The position numbers were made by a program, and so were the translations under genes. From assembly GCF_025231485.1 (NCBI RefSeq), contig NZ_CP104003.1, positions 124,001 through 188,000 on the forward strand: a DNA stretch of 64,000 bases, given 5' to 3'. Positions 15,303 through 52,827 of this stretch are shown here, piece by piece (positions within the stretch are counted from its first letter, which is position 1; each line of letters starts with the position of its first letter). Under the pieces are notes generated by a model. The model saw only the letters and a program-made list of their open reading frames with translations. It was not told the DNA's origin and made no database searches. The DNA is from Salinirubellus salinus. GTDB lineage: Archaea > Halobacteriota > Halobacteria > Halobacteriales > Haloarculaceae.

Positions 15303-15794
15303 GTGACACTCACCTTCCCGAGTGAAGCGTGGTTCGCCGCGTATGGCGAGCGCATCGACGAGAGGGAGGCGGACGCCGAGTCCGCCAGCGACTGGGGCGT
15401 CGGGTTCGACGGCGACTTCCTGTTCGTGATGACCGACGTGCCCGTGGCGTCGGTGTCCGACGAGTTGCCCGAGGACCTCGCCGCGGAGATGGACACGCAC
15501 ATCGAGGACGGCACGGGCTACGGGTACCTCGGGCTCGAGGCCGGGGTGTGTACCCGCGCGGAGTTCGTCGCACCCGACGACCCCGCGGTCGAGCAGGCGG
15601 GTTTCGTGATGGCCGCGAGCCGAGATGATCACCGAGCGGTACGGCTGAACGGCGGCTTCGGACTCCTCGAAGACCGAGACGACCGTCGTGCTGGCTACGG
15701 AGTGGGTCTGCTCGGCGGTCGGAGGCACTACTGTACGGCACCACGCCGGTATGCGACGTCTGCCGACGGAACTCCCACGATTTTGTCGTCGTGA
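15303..15794 (+). pseudogene. truncated SCP2-like protein (paralogue of the gene at 48371-48793)
   Basis: Open from GTG 15303 for 163 codons. Residues 1-105 resemble the intact SCP2-like protein of this window: TFPSEAWFAAYGERID against EFPSEAWMEEYKNRLN, DWGVGFDGDFLF against GWGVGFDGDFIF, and QAGFVMAAS against EHGFVMRGA. After that point the similarity ends. The remaining 58 residues are Arg/Gly-rich, unlike haloarchaeal proteins, and the Met/Gly/Asp-rich C-terminal helices that complete the fold are missing in all frames I read. I infer a copy that lost its 3' half. A diverged functional protein is possible. Confidence 0.55.
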
Positions 15795-16601: not shown

Positions 16602-17878
16602 CTACACGGGTGTATGCAGTGACGTCTGTTCGGCGCGTCGTTCGGCGTTCTCCGTGTACGCCGAGTGCTCGGTCGGTTCCTTGCCGACGACGAGCTTCTG
16701 TCTCTCCGTCGTCCCGTCCGGGATGGTCAGGGTGCGGGCGTCGCGGTAGTACCGTTCGAGGCGGTTCCCGGTCTTCAGGCCCTCGCCACCGTGGACTGGA
16801 GCGCCGAGTCGGCCACGTCGACGGCCCGCTCGCAGCAGAACCCCTTGGCGAGCGAGGTGAGCCGGCGGACGTCCTCCGAGCCCTCCTGCAGGGCCTCTGC
16901 CGCCGTCCGGGCGAGACCCCGAGAAGCCTCCAGATCGGCGTTCATGTCGTAGAGGTGGCTCTGGACGAGCTGGTGTTGCGCGATGGGCTTGCCGAACGTC
17001 TCGCGCTGCTGGACGTACTCGAGCGCCTCGGCGAACGCGGCCTCCATGATGCCGATGCCCATGTAGGCCATCCCCGTCCGCATGAACGAGAACGTCGCGT
17101 TCAGCGGCTTCTGTCGGGCGAACAGGTCGGTGACGCTCTCGGGGAACGGGACGATCTCGGTCAGCTCGTGGCCGTCGACCATCGCGTTGCCGACGATGTT
17201 CGTCAGTTTGTTCTCGGCGGGCACGCGCACCTCGTCGAACTCCATCCGGGCGTTGTAGACACCTTTCCAGCCGAGCTTGTCGAGCGGCTCGGCCTCCCAC
17301 GGGCTGTTCTCCCGACTCACGAGGAACGTGTCGGAGGCGCCGATCTCGGTGTCCTCGGCGACGACGAGCGCCACGTCCGCGATACCGCCGTTGCCGACCC
17401 ACGTCTTCGACCCCTCGAGGACGTACTCGTCGCCGTCCCTGTGGGCCTTCCTTCGCGGGCGGGCCGTGTCGGAGCCACTGTCCGGCTCCGAGACGGCGAG
17501 ACAGGCGATGCACTCCCCGCGCTGGAGCTTGTCGAGTTCCGCGGCCCGCGTCGACTCGGCGGCGTGCTGGACGAACAGGGCCGGGAACGACAGCTGGATG
17601 GTGACGTTGAGCGACGGCCACACCCGCGATATCTCCTCGCTGGCGACGGCGAACCGCGGCAGGTCGTCGAAGTACTGCGGCGCCGTCTCGGGGTTGAACC
17701 CGACGCCGAGTTCGCGCAGGTCCCGCAGATAGGCCACGAGTTCGTCGCGGGCCATCGGGCCGTTCCGGTCGGCCTCGTCGACGACCGGTTCGATTTCCTC
17801 CTCGAGGTAGTCACGGAGGGCTGCTCTGAACGCCGCCGTGTCGTCGAACATCACCTCGTGGTCCGGCCGGGCGGGCAA
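16602..17878 (-). pseudogene. acyl-CoA dehydrogenase, interrupted by a one-base frameshift
   Basis: The first 367 codons (17878 to 16775; likely real start ATG 17851) give a normal acyl-CoA dehydrogenase: LAVSEPDSGSD, EGSKTWVGNGG and the FAD-contact QQRETFGKPIAQHQLVQ. At 16796 the frame shifts: DSALQ is followed by STVARA and a stop. The missing C-terminus, VHGGEGLKTGNRLERYYRDA through GKEPTEHSAYT, continues in another frame to TAG at 16602. Restoring one C in plus-strand GTGGACTGGAG rejoins them. Either a recent pseudogene or a sequencing deletion. The enzyme would oxidise acyl-CoA with FAD. Confidence 0.85.
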
Positions 17879-46182: not shown

Positions 46183-47061
46183 ATGCTCACCGTCCGGGCG
46201 CCGGCGACGAGTGCGAACCTCGGCAGCGGGTTCGACGTCTTCGGCGTCGCCCTCGAACGCCCGGCGGACGTGGTCCGCGTCGAGAAGGCCGCAGAGACCA
46301 CCATCACCGTCACGGGCGCGGGGAGCCAGTACATACCCGAGGACCCGCGGAAGAACACGGTCGGTGCCGTCGCCGAGGCGCTGGAGGCGCCCGCCCACAT
46401 CCGCATCGACAAGGGGATCCGCCCGGCCTCGGGGCTCGGCTCCTCGGCCGCCAGCGCCGCCGCCGCCGCCGTCGGGCTGAACGAACTCTACGACCGGGGC
46501 TACACCCGCGAGGAACTCGTCCCCATCGCCGCCGAGGGCGAGGCCGTCGTCTCGGGGGCGGCACACTCCGACAACGTCGCGCCATCCATCCTCGGCGGGT
46601 TCACCATCGCCCGGCACGACGGCGTGACGAGCGTCGACGCGGACATCCCGCTCGTCGCCTGCCTCCCCGAGATCGTCGTCTCGACCCGCGACGCCCGTCG
46701 GGTCGTCCCCGACGGCGCCCGGATGGAACAGGTCGTCGAGACGGTCGGCAACGCCGCGACGCTCGCCGTGGGGATGGCCCGCGACGACCCCGACCTCGTC
46801 GGCCGGGGGATGCACGACTCCGTGGTCACGCCCGCGCGTGCGGAACTCATCGACGGGTACGGGAACGTCCACGCCTCCGCGGTCGAGGCGGGTGCCACCG
46901 GCGTCACCATCAGCGGCGCCGGCCCGACCGTCATCGCGGCCTGTCACGAGGGTGACCGGGGCGCGGTGGCCAGCGCGATGCTCGACTCCTTCGAGCGCTC
47001 GGGCGTCGAAGCCCGCGCGTTCAAGACGCGCATCGGGCGTGGCGCCGAGATGTTCGACTAG
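46183..47061 (+). CDS. thrB: homoserine kinase
   Basis: 292 residues. GHMP kinase: VRAPATSANLGSGFDVFGVA at the N-terminus, ATP loop IRPASGLGSSAASAAAAAVG (about 79-98), and the C-terminal ATGVTISGAGPTVIAACHEG. It phosphorylates homoserine for threonine synthesis in the cytoplasm. Stand-alone, with a leaderless promoter. Its stop shares CTAG (47058-47061) with the convergent phosphotransferase gene. Confidence 0.95.
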   Translation: MLTVRAPATSANLGSGFDVFGVALERPADVVRVEKAAETTITVTGAGSQYIPEDPRKNTVGAVAEALEAPAHIRIDKGIRPASGLGSSAASAAAAAVGLNELYDRGYTREELVPIAAEGEAVVSGAAHSDNVAPSILGGFTIARHDGVTSVDADIPLVACLPEIVVSTRDARRVVPDGARMEQVVETVGNAATLAVGMARDDPDLVGRGMHDSVVTPARAELIDGYGNVHASAVEAGATGVTISGAGPTVIAACHEGDRGAVASAMLDSFERSGVEARAFKTRIGRGAEMFD

Positions 47062-48370: not shown

Positions 48371-48793
48371 TCAGTACGCGTACTCGGTGTCGATGCTCGC
48401 GCTCGTCTCCGTCATCGCCACCGCGGCACCGGAGTACTGCATGACCTTCTGCATGTCACCCTCGAGGTCGAAGACGCCGGACATCATCCCGTCGATGGCA
48501 CCCATCTCGCCGTCGTTGAGCTTCTGCCAGTCGGAGTAGGCGCCCCGCATGACGAAGCCGTGCTCGACCTCGTCGAGGTCGTCGACCTCCTTCACCGCGG
48601 TACACTTGCCATCCTCGAGTGCGATGTAGAAGTAGCGGTCCTCCGGGAGTCGGTCGTCAGCGACGATGTGGAAGATGAAGTCGCCGTCGAACCCGACGCC
48701 CCAGCCGGCGCCCTGCTCTCCGTACTCCTCGCTCTCGTTCAGTCGGTTCTTGTACTCCTCCATCCACGCCTCACTCGGGAACTCGTATGCCAT
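48371..48793 (-). CDS. SCP2 sterol-binding-like protein
   Basis: 140 residues from ATG 48793. EFPSEAWMEEYKNRLNESEE, then GWGVGFDGDFIFHIVADD and CTAVKEVDDLDEVEHGFVMR, with a C-terminal half MGAIDGMMSGVFDLEGDMQK and VMQYSGAAVAMTETS. The order W-x-GD/GMMSG-x-GD is that of the SCP2 lipid-binding fold, which holds hydrophobic ligands. The acidic sequence is haloarchaeal. It has a strong SD whose bases are inside an RNA hairpin. A truncated relative is at 15303-15794. Confidence 0.8.
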   Translation of the reverse strand: MAYEFPSEAWMEEYKNRLNESEEYGEQGAGWGVGFDGDFIFHIVADDRLPEDRYFYIALEDGKCTAVKEVDDLDEVEHGFVMRGAYSDWQKLNDGEMGAIDGMMSGVFDLEGDMQKVMQYSGAAVAMTETSASIDTEYAY

Positions 48794-48800
48794 GATGTGT

Positions 48801-48824
48801 GCCTCCGTACCACGTATCGGAGGC
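48801..48824 (-). promoter_or_regulatory. 5'-UTR hairpin enclosing the SD of the SCP2-like gene
   Basis: In the mRNA, GCCTCCG and CGGAGGC are separated by ATACGTGGTA, giving a perfect 7-bp stem. The 3' arm contains the ribosome binding site GGAGG, whose last base is 8 nt before the ATG at 48793. Folding would hide the SD. Candidate translational switch. No known riboswitch aptamer recognised. Confidence 0.55.
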
Positions 48825-48985
48825 CCGTGTGCCGAATAAGCGTTCTGCCGCGCTGACGGCGAACGTATAAATACCAGGGGGTGGCGAGCGGCGGCGTCCC
48901 GTCAGGCGGTTCTGTGGCGCCGGACATAAACTCCCGTTTCATCCCCACGGAACCCTTTACCGTGCGGTATTCCAGACGGTGGACA

Positions 48986-51367
48986 GTGACGACCCGAGAG
49001 ATACGAGATCACACGAACACGTCCGCATCGCGGCTCGGCGGGGCCGAGTTCCAGGCGGCCGTCGTCGGAGCCCTGGTGGGTGGGGCCGTCGGCGCGGCCG
49101 CCATGGAGCGACTGGCGCCGGGCCACCTCCGACTGGTGGGTGCACTCAGTGGCGAGGCAGCGTTCGCCCAGTCGCTCGTGACCTGGTTCGGGCTCTGTCT
49201 CCTCCTCGGTCTCGGCTTCGCCTACGTCGCCTCGCGCAGTCTGAACCGCTACACCACCGTCGTGGTGGCGCTGACCTCGCGCAGCACCACGCTCCGACGG
49301 CTGTTGATGCCCGCGGTCCGGCGGTCAATGCTCGGGACCACCGCCGCCGGCATCGGCGTGCTGTTCGGTGCCGCCGCGGCCGTCGTCGTCGGCTTCGTCG
49401 GCGTCCCCGTGGCCGTCGACGTGGCGACGGACTACCGCCCCTCGGTGCCCATCGTCGACTCCTCCGTCGCCCTCGGCTACGTCCTCACGGGGACCGTCAT
49501 CGGCGCTGGCTACGGGACGACGCTGGACGGGTCGCTCCCCACCCTCGGCCTCGGGACCGACCGTGGACGTGGGGTCGTCTACGGGACGCTCCTCGGAGGA
49601 GCGCTGGGCGGGGGGACGCTGGCTCTGCTCGCGCCGCTGCACCTCCGGTATGTCGGCGCCGTCGTGGGGAGCGGGTCCGTGGGTCGTGGTCTGCTCGTCT
49701 TCTTCGCCACCGCGTTCGTCCTGACAGCCGTCTTCGCGGTGACCGCTGCGAAGCTCGGCGGTCGTGGACCGGGATACACCCGGCGGACGGCGTTCGCGGG
49801 CATCTGTTTCGGGGCACTCGCCGGCGTCGCCCTGAGCCTGTTCGCCGTGCCGGCCGTCGTCAACAGCGAGACGCAGTTCACGCTCGCCTCCCCGCTCGGT
49901 GACCGGGCCGTCCTCGCCGGGTGGACCGTCTACGGCCTGTTCGCGGGGTACGGCTACGCCCGCGGCGTCGAAGGGGGCTCGGTCCTCCCGGACAAGCTCG
50001 TCGACCGGGTCGGTGCCGTCACCGCGTCCACGCTCGTCGCGGGGACCGTCGGCTCGGTGTTGCTCTACCTCATCTCGCCGGTGCACCTCCGGTTCGTCGG
50101 CACACTCACGCGCTCCGGAACGCTCGAACGCGGCATCCTGAGCGTCTACCTGTTCGCCCTGCTCGCGGCCGTCGGCGTCGCGCTGTTCGCCGACGAGACG
50201 GCCCGCCGCTCGGGGCTCCGTCTCGGGAGTGCCGTCGGCGTGCTGAGTGTGCTGTTCGGCCTCTTCACTCTCCCACTCTACGTGAACCGCGTGACGACGT
50301 TCACGCTGCAGGTGCCGCTGGGTACCCCCCGCGTCCTGCTCGGGTGGGGTGCCTTCGGGATGGTCTTCGGGTTGACATATGGCGTCGTCCGCCGGCGCGA
50401 GACACCCCTGCTCGGCGCCGAGCGCACCCGGGCGACGGTGTACGGTGCGGCCGGTGCGGCCGTCGCCTCCACGTTCGTCTTCTACGCCGGGTGGCCGGTC
50501 TACCTGCGGTACTTCGGCGACCTCGCGGGGAACGCGACGTTCGCCCGCGGGACGGCCGTCTGGGCCGCGCTGGCGGTGCTGTTCGCGCTCGGGTTCGCGC
50601 TCACGCTCGGCAAGCAGGTCGAGTCGTCGACGCCGTTCGCCGACGCCGTCCGCCGGGGGGCGGCCTACGGGGCCGGTCTCGCGGCGGTGGTCGGCCTCGT
50701 GCTCGTCCCGTTCTTCGTCGACGAGACGACGGCCTCGGCCCTGCCACTGCCGCACACCGACCCCGCCGTCCTCCTCGGGTACGTCGCGTTCGGTGGCGTC
50801 CTCGGCGCGACGTACCGCTCGACGCTGCCGACGGACGCCGAGACGCTGGGGGCCGACCTCTCGGCGCGGGCGCGCCGTCGACGCGCGACCCTCTTCGGCG
50901 CGCTGTTCGGCGCGTTCGTCGGCGGGCTCGTCCTCCAGCACCTCGCCGGCCTCGTCCACCTGCGGTACGTCGGCTCGCTGGCCGGGCAGGGTGGCTCGGT
51001 CGTCGGGTCGTGGGCCGTCTGGCTGGCGCTCGCGGCACTGTTCGCGGTGGCGTTCCGGGTCGCCGTCGGCGGTCGGTTCGACGAGTACGAGCGGCGCGTC
51101 CGGACCGTGGCGAAGCAGGACGCCGACCTGAACCGACTGCTCGGCGGCGCGCTCGACGACACCCCGCGGGCGACGACGGGGCTGCTCGTCGGCACGGGGT
51201 ACGGGATCGCGCTGGCCGTCGGCGTCGGGATACTCGCCGTCCCGCTCGTCGTCAACACCGCGACACCGTTCCTGATGCCGCTCCCGAACCTCGACGCCTA
51301 CGTCCTGCTCGCGTTCGTCGCCTACGGTACCGTCCTCGGGACGGGCTACGGCGTGATGCTGGAGTAG
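48986..51367 (+). CDS. large membrane protein of five internal repeats, unknown function
   Basis: About 793 residues from GTG 48986, about 28 nt after the CCTTTACC box (48952-48959). GTG 48962 and GTG 48881 are in-frame alternatives, the latter too close to a TATAAATA at 48868. The chain repeats one unit five times: an (A/L)xHLRxVGxL motif at residues 47, 219, 367, 506 and 658, two helices, and a helix ending VLLGY/W-x-x-FG-x-x-x-G-x-x-YG at about 161, 309, 450, 595 and 773. Roughly twenty membrane helices. No ATPase, permease or enzyme motif. I recognise no family. Confidence 0.8.
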   Translation: MTTREIRDHTNTSASRLGGAEFQAAVVGALVGGAVGAAAMERLAPGHLRLVGALSGEAAFAQSLVTWFGLCLLLGLGFAYVASRSLNRYTTVVVALTSRSTTLRRLLMPAVRRSMLGTTAAGIGVLFGAAAAVVVGFVGVPVAVDVATDYRPSVPIVDSSVALGYVLTGTVIGAGYGTTLDGSLPTLGLGTDRGRGVVYGTLLGGALGGGTLALLAPLHLRYVGAVVGSGSVGRGLLVFFATAFVLTAVFAVTAAKLGGRGPGYTRRTAFAGICFGALAGVALSLFAVPAVVNSETQFTLASPLGDRAVLAGWTVYGLFAGYGYARGVEGGSVLPDKLVDRVGAVTASTLVAGTVGSVLLYLISPVHLRFVGTLTRSGTLERGILSVYLFALLAAVGVALFADETARRSGLRLGSAVGVLSVLFGLFTLPLYVNRVTTFTLQVPLGTPRVLLGWGAFGMVFGLTYGVVRRRETPLLGAERTRATVYGAAGAAVASTFVFYAGWPVYLRYFGDLAGNATFARGTAVWAALAVLFALGFALTLGKQVESSTPFADAVRRGAAYGAGLAAVVGLVLVPFFVDETTASALPLPHTDPAVLLGYVAFGGVLGATYRSTLPTDAETLGADLSARARRRRATLFGALFGAFVGGLVLQHLAGLVHLRYVGSLAGQGGSVVGSWAVWLALAALFAVAFRVAVGGRFDEYERRVRTVAKQDADLNRLLGGALDDTPRATTGLLVGTGYGIALAVGVGILAVPLVVNTATPFLMPLPNLDAYVLLAFVAYGTVLGTGYGVMLE

Positions 51368-51660: not shown

Positions 51661-52827
51661 ATGCACGACGTCGTACTGGTGGACGGTGCTCGTACGCCTC
51701 ACGGCGCACTGCTCGGCGGCCTCGCGGACGTGAGCGCCGTCGAACTGGGGCGGACGGCGCTCGACGGACTGCTGGACCGCGTTGCCCTCGCGCCCGAACA
51801 GGTCGACTACGTCACCGTAGGCAACGCCATCCAGGCCGGCATCGGGCAGGTTCCAGGCCGCCAGGCGGTGTACGCCTCGACGCTGCCGAAGGAGACGCCG
51901 GTGACGACCATCAACGAGGCCTCCGGGTCGGGGGTCCGGGCCATCATGAACGCCCACGACCACCTCGCGGCGGGGCGGGCCGAGTTCGCCATCGCGGGCG
52001 GGATGGAGTCGATGACGAACGCCCCGCACGTCCTGCCGGGCCACCGGAAGGGCGAGCGGATGGGCGACGCGACGCTGAAGGACTCGATGATCTACGACTC
52101 GCTCTGGGACGTCTCGTACGACGCCCATATGGGCGAGCTGACCGAGGCACTGGTCGAGCGCGAGGGCATCACCCGCGAGCGACAGGACCGGTACGCCCTG
52201 GAGTCGAACGAACGCGCCGTCGCGGCGACGGAGGCGGGCCTGTTCGACGACGAGATGGTCCCCGTCGAGACGCCGGACCGGGTCGTCGACACGGACGAGG
52301 GGCCGCGTGCCGACACGTCGCTGGAGGCGCTCGGGCGACTCCCGACGCCGTTCGCCGACCCCGGGACCATCACGCCGGGCAACGCCTCGAAGCTCTCGGA
52401 CGGTGCGGGGTTCGTCCTGCTGGCGACGGCCGAGGCCGCCGAGGCCGCCGGGCTCGAACCGATGGCTCGCGTCACGGACTACGCGGTCCAGTACCGCGAC
52501 CCGAAGTGGTTCAACGACGCCGTCGCCGCCGCCGTCGAGGCCCTGCTGGCGCAGAACGACCTCGCGGTCGAGGACGTCGACCGCTACGAGGTGAACGAGG
52601 CGTTCGCCGCGCAGATGGTCCACGTGATGGACCGGGTCGGCGTGCCGCGCGAGCGACTCAACACGCGTGGTGGGGCCGTCGCCTACGGCCACCCCATCGG
52701 GGCCAGCGGTGGGATGATAGCCGCGTCGCTCGCCTACGAACTGGAGCGCGAGGACCTCGCCCGTGGGTTCGTCGGGATGAGCGTCGGTGGTGGCGGTGGC
52801 GTGATGGCGATGCTCGAGCGGCCGTAG
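51661..52827 (+). CDS. acetyl-CoA acyltransferase-type thiolase with Ser at catalytic Cys sites
   Basis: 388 residues. Thiolase fold throughout: DGARTPHGALLGGLADVSAV, AGGMESMTNAPHVLPGHRKG, YEVNEAFAAQMVHVMDRVGV, AVAYGHPIGASGGMIAASLA. The nucleophile motif, normally N-x-x-CGSG, reads NEASGSG (Ser88), and the C-terminal base, normally C-x-GGG, reads GMSVGGGGG (Ser374). His344 remains. It may act through a serine or be a variant. Family role: thiolytic cleavage or condensation of acyl-CoA. Preceded by AT-rich CTATATGTGTG box about 30 nt before ATG. Confidence 0.88.
   Translation: MHDVVLVDGARTPHGALLGGLADVSAVELGRTALDGLLDRVALAPEQVDYVTVGNAIQAGIGQVPGRQAVYASTLPKETPVTTINEASGSGVRAIMNAHDHLAAGRAEFAIAGGMESMTNAPHVLPGHRKGERMGDATLKDSMIYDSLWDVSYDAHMGELTEALVEREGITRERQDRYALESNERAVAATEAGLFDDEMVPVETPDRVVDTDEGPRADTSLEALGRLPTPFADPGTITPGNASKLSDGAGFVLLATAEAAEAAGLEPMARVTDYAVQYRDPKWFNDAVAAAVEALLAQNDLAVEDVDRYEVNEAFAAQMVHVMDRVGVPRERLNTRGGAVAYGHPIGASGGMIAASLAYELEREDLARGFVGMSVGGGGGVMAMLERP

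Follow-up and report, generated by a model that had tools for sequence, protein, structure and literature searches.

A haloarchaeal membrane protein of five tandem four-helix units and its divergently encoded SCP2-like neighbour

The five-unit gene and its neighbourhood

The window, by which we mean the whole 64,000-nucleotide stretch of DNA analysed here, is chromosomal and belongs to the 4.38-Mb genome of a haloarchaeon. One forward-strand ORF within it encodes a membrane protein of 793 residues (translated span 48986-51364; Table 1). This ORF has the highest coding score in its region, orthologues are present in other genera, and comparison with close five-unit orthologues gave dN/dS values of 0.12-0.16 for the whole gene; these findings show the gene to be real. 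Each of the five units described below is itself under purifying selection (dN/dS of 0-0.29 between close orthologues). The predicted start at 48986 is backed by alignment to the start of a five-unit orthologue (L048), and the long antisense ORFs found across the region are an artefact of high GC content. Scans against Pfam, NCBIfam and PADLOC assigned no family to the 793-residue protein; the Pfam and NCBIfam searches likewise gave no match to a transporter or enzyme family. A preliminary description of the locus, made from the letters of the sequence, had reported that no ATPase, ion-selectivity or enzyme motif is visible; we likewise recognised no enzyme or ion-coupling motif.

Table 1. Positions in the window of the five-unit gene, its repeat units and neighbouring features
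Feature	Position	Strand	Evidence
Five-unit membrane protein, 793 aa, 20 predicted membrane helices, predicted N-in/C-in	48986..51367	+	Translation, coding score, repeat comparison, AlphaFold2, charge bias
Unit 1, residues 18-184, long-loop type with cytoplasmic insertion (predicted)	49037..49537	+	Unit-versus-unit comparison, alignment, charge bias
Unit 2, residues 185-330, short-loop type	49538..49975	+	Unit-versus-unit comparison, alignment
Unit 3, residues 331-472, short-loop type	49976..50401	+	Unit-versus-unit comparison, alignment
Unit 4, residues 473-617, short-loop type	50402..50836	+	Unit-versus-unit comparison, alignment
Unit 5, residues 618-793, long-loop type	50837..51364	+	Unit-versus-unit comparison; AlphaFold2 pLDDT 92.7, pTM 0.86
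SCP2-like protein, 140 aa, conserved divergent partner	48371..48793	-	Pfam PF02036, 30.2 bits (cut-off 21.3)
Divergent intergenic region, 192 bp, between the SCP2-like and five-unit genes; presumed promoters	48794..48985	.	Arrangement in 17 of 18 loci with four or five units
Thiolase (acetyl-CoA C-acyltransferase), downstream neighbour; linkage to the five-unit gene not conserved	51661..52827	+	
GHMP kinase (homoserine-kinase-like), syntenic-locus marker in several relatives	46183..47061	+	

SCP2 domains are lipid carriers. Among the 18 loci that encode proteins of four or five units, 17 have a divergent SCP2-type gene immediately upstream, the outer neighbours being variable, and the partner proteins at these loci are 54-69% identical to the window copy. 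The genome of the window has one SCP2 match above the cut-off and one weak match. For the one-unit relatives described below, an SCP2-like gene was found within three genes at 11 of 20 loci, mostly at a different locus that also has an acyl-CoA dehydrogenase gene; none was found within that distance at the other 9 of the 20, or at most of the three-unit genes. The neighbours of other one-unit genes are DUF6230, DUF6114 and DUF5518-like genes. Close SCP2 orthologues were also identified near homologous neighbours in loci that have no unit gene (L148, L149 and L150, with thrB in L148 and L150). Since SCP2 orthologues thus occur at the same syntenic locus without a unit gene, the pairing of unit and SCP2 genes may in part be inherited synteny.

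Elsewhere in the window, a second SCP2-like ORF (15303-15794, +) was detected as an iterated-profile match that falls under Pfam's limit. It lies near an acyl-CoA-dehydrogenase-like gene (16775-17851, -), in a setting that resembles the neighbourhood of one-unit genes in other haloarchaea; a unit gene is absent there.

Internal repeat and predicted topology

The preliminary description had proposed that the protein consists of five tandem copies of a helical unit, and named self-alignment as a check. When this was done, all ten of the ten unit pairs gave Smith-Waterman scores of 119-220, against means of 39-48 for 300 shuffles in which the hydrophobic/polar pattern was preserved (z of 9.2-20.7, or 9-21 standard deviations above the shuffles). 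The five copies are therefore homologous. A profile built from the units recovers every unit within the five-unit protein, and every unit aligns to the profile of the one-unit relatives (A3), invariant glycines and tyrosine included. Five positions are invariant in an alignment of the five units with seven one- or three-unit relatives. Both of the recurring motifs that had been described were found at the residues given for them, each with one variant. The (A/P/V)xHLRxVG-type motif begins at residues 47, 219, 367, 506 and 658, reading YLRYFG at 506, and the VLLG(Y/W)-type motif occurs at residues 309, 450, 595 and 773, with the variant VALGYVLTG near 161. The units are unequal in length because units 1 and 5, unlike units 2-4, have an insertion of about 30 residues, predicted to be cytoplasmic, that separates helix 2 from helix 3. 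In one-unit relatives this insertion reads SxNxFVxxxIxLSSxSxxLxKLLVPLLxRSAL. Within the unit family, no internal repeat was detectable inside the unit itself (helices 1-2 against helices 3-4).

AlphaFold2 modelling of the full-length protein, with eight sequences as input, predicted 20 membrane helices, four in each unit together with one short interfacial helix; about four per unit had been anticipated. The pTM of this model is 0.39, and its helices are clear but the placement of the units relative to one another is unreliable. Unit 5 alone was modelled confidently from 53 sequences (pLDDT 92.7, pTM 0.86). The order of elements in that model is helix 1, a short outer helix carrying the HLRxVG motif, helix 2, the cytoplasmic insertion helix, helix 3 and helix 4. 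When the helix boundaries of the full-length model were used to count charged residues, 28 Lys/Arg were assigned to inside loops versus 7 to outside loops. This charge bias argues strongly for an N-in/C-in topology, in which both termini, the linkers that join the units and the insertions in units 1 and 5 are predicted to be cytoplasmic, and the HLRxVG helices to face outward.

Structural comparisons revealed no clear match in the PDB. A sequence search of the PDB with a one-unit profile gave zero matches. In fold searches with the unit 5 model, the best Foldseek E value was 1.4 and the best VIA-align Z score, to FtsX, was 5.5, which is in the range expected of unrelated helical bundles.

Relatives, copy number and the wider family

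Whole-genome searches identified one-unit proteins of about 175-220 aa in several haloarchaeal families, with examples in Halocatena, Natrinema, Natrialba and Halococcus. Such single-copy homologues had been named as something for a profile search to look for. By our table count, strong matches to the unit profile (best E < 1e-25) were present in 38 of 391 Halobacteria genomes, and a sample of 295 genomes from the phylum yielded none beyond the order. Among the genomes searched, multi-unit proteins were confined to the taxonomic family of the window. Two units are fused to a DUF6114 domain in L051, and three units to DUF6114 in L055-L058, which come from one genus of this family and a thrB-linked locus. 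Four units were found at twelve loci, and five in the window protein and in L046, L047, L048, L114 and L115. The stand-alone one-unit version, of about 180 aa, and the two-, three-, four- and five-unit forms are thus all extant, and the larger ones share a related locus. Some four-unit proteins of one genus (g10) lack unit 1; their units 2-5 match units 2-5 of the five-unit orthologues. In L052 and L119-L121, which are four-unit proteins from one genus, what remains at the N-terminus in place of unit 1 is a single hydrophobic helix with a glycine-rich tail, which looks like the result of an internal deletion.

A pseudo-fivefold ring, which the preliminary description had called conceivable, was also considered. 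Because orthologues with four units, unit 1 having been lost, exist at related loci, and relatives with three, two and one unit are found as well, five is not a fixed number and a fixed ring of this kind is unsupported.

In the unit tree, all units of the four- and five-unit proteins form one clade (support 97/79), and the units of the three-unit proteins form a separate one (87/45). The one-unit proteins group apart with the exception of L060, a one-unit gene with a divergent 140-aa SCP2-like gene, which adjoins the multi-unit clade (88/59). The tree, with this placement of L060, fits amplification in place: on sequence evidence there is strong support for the view that the unit was amplified at one locus of the window's taxonomic family and that some relatives subsequently lost copies. 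The best tree separates the three-unit from the five-unit proteins. Topology tests did not reject a shared multi-unit ancestor of these two forms (p of 0.09-0.48), and with AU p values in that range their independent amplification is not established.

Stand-alone DUF6114 and DUF6230 genes were observed as neighbours of one-unit genes (L061, L064 and others). Given this proximity and the C-terminal DUF6114 domain of the two- and three-unit proteins, the unit may act jointly with DUF6114 and DUF6230. We found no literature on DUF6114 or DUF6789, and DUF6230 is mentioned only incidentally.

The unit had been called unfamiliar. That holds insofar as it belongs to no Pfam or NCBIfam family, but it does have distant kin. 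The unit profile matched the profile of A4, a four-helix family common among haloarchaea, at Prob 98.2-98.8 and with E values of 3e-14 to 6e-17 (best hhalign alignment: Prob 98.8, E 5.5e-17, 143 columns), while control profiles for two multi-helix families encoded at unit loci, DUF5518-like and DUF6114, gave Prob < 1. Proteins of the A4 type reach the Pfam cut-off of DUF6789 (PF20587). Neither the window protein nor those relatives with one to four units that were tested reached the gathering cut-off of that family. Direct hhalign comparison of the unit profile (A5) with the core oxidase-linked DUF6789 profile (A9) gave no match (Prob 0.4); A4 and A9 aligned with Prob 75.6, in the second half only. 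To judge from these profile comparisons, the unit and the DUF6789-type four-helix family are distantly related, the unit having an inserted loop, but Pfam's rule does not make it a member. The first and second helix pairs of A4 are alike at a level that is suggestive only (Prob 78, P 2e-5), and this likeness in the DUF6789-like family raises the possibility that a helical hairpin was doubled to give the four-helix unit.

Several arrangements of DUF6789 genes were recorded. In one haloarchaeon a COX1 protein carries DUF6789 as a C-terminal fusion (L172:2348-4627), and in another DUF6789 is encoded divergently beside COX2/COX1-COX3 (L174:4972-8969); the fusion and the adjacency suggest that DUF6789 has an accessory role in respiratory oxidases. 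A further locus has two DUF6789-like genes of about 155-165 aa arranged head to tail (L083:4552-5681).

Possible roles and comparison with known systems

The conserved divergent SCP2 gene, together with the SCP2 and acyl-CoA neighbours of one-unit genes, points to lipid handling. The protein is a concatemer of a small haloarchaeal four-helix membrane domain, and we tentatively propose that it would act as a passive, multi-site platform for the SCP2-like lipid carrier. Under this proposal, the Gly/Ala-packed units would form a membrane platform with several hydrophobic sites; the soluble SCP2-like protein would dock on its cytoplasmic face, most likely at the unit 1 and unit 5 insertions, where an acyl or isoprenoid lipid would be loaded or unloaded. 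Fusion of units would raise the number of lipid sites in one chain or fix their geometry. A bolder form of the proposal, to which we give rather little weight, is that the protein represents a new kind of platform for lipid exchange, embedded in the membrane, whose tandem domains would offer several sites for SCP2 docking and loading and whose copy number, from one to five, would tune capacity or geometry. The preliminary description had also mentioned a sensor of the membrane; we saw no evidence of one, and the gene neighbourhood suggests lipid handling instead.

The conserved SCP2 gene and the acyl-CoA neighbours of one-unit genes would go unexplained if the protein were purely structural, its tightly packed helices serving to stiffen the membrane, to organise it or to hold a partner complex, and carrying no lipid. 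Such a scaffold could account for several other features. The membrane helices contain about 16% Gly and 18% Ala, and no charged residue lies deep within them, the few counted within helices being near the ends. Variable copy number is tolerated, two- and three-unit forms carry a fused DUF6114 domain, and the fusion of the related DUF6789 to a cytochrome oxidase subunit is what would be expected of an accessory packing module. We nevertheless think a scaffold of this sort rather improbable. The oxidase fusion and the COX-adjacent gene also raise the idea that the protein is itself an accessory module of a respiratory or redox complex, as DUF6789 appears to be. This is very unlikely, as no oxidase genes were recognised adjoining the unit genes examined, the kinship to DUF6789 is distant, and the unit profile has no direct match to the oxidase-linked one.

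The protein is large and polytopic, and repeated helical bundles in the same orientation can enclose a pore. It might therefore be a channel or transporter in which the five units surround a shared pathway for a small solute or lipid, with SCP2 as a chance or inherited neighbour, as the SCP2 orthologues that occur without a unit gene would allow. The copy number, which ranges from one to five and includes four in orthologues, fits poorly with a single central pathway. Moreover, the family scans gave no transporter match, the lack of deeply placed charge speaks against such a function, and no solved transporter showed a clear fold match, the FtsX score lying within the range of unrelated bundles. 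We consider a channel or transporter unlikely. For the lipid-carrier platform that we favour tentatively, the SCP2 pairing provides a concrete and cheap hypothesis about an otherwise unannotated archaeal membrane family. Five homologous four-helix units in one chain are unusual, and the copy-number series from one to five allows a direct test of the stepwise growth of a large membrane protein as units fuse and are lost.

A link to DUF1440 and YagU of E. coli comes solely through weak DUF1440 Pfam hits of A4-type proteins; hhalign of the unit or A4 against the single E. coli YagU sequence gave no match, a single sequence being a weak test, and we claim no membership in that family. YagU, which lies in the inner membrane, has been reported to play a part in acid resistance (PMC2270276). 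The nearest relatives of the window protein are the one-unit proteins, true homologues that share its four-helix unit and cytoplasmic insertion; they differ in having a single copy per chain rather than five, their neighbours differ in many genomes, and the family is unannotated. The proteins of L055-L058 share the tandem unit and come from the same taxonomic family, at the thrB-linked locus, but they have three units, all of the long-loop type, and a C-terminal DUF6114 domain, which is absent from the window protein. DUF6789 (PF20587) has the same order of four helices and similar glycine motifs, its homology to the unit being traced through the intermediate A4; it differs in having no insertion, occurring in single copy and sometimes being fused to COX1, and the window protein falls below its cut-off. 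SWEETs are sugar transporters of a family unrelated to the unit, and five tandem units are atypical of them. They offer an analogy all the same, in that the membrane unit occurs alone in SemiSWEETs and elsewhere, in SWEETs, is duplicated in one chain (PMC5742349).
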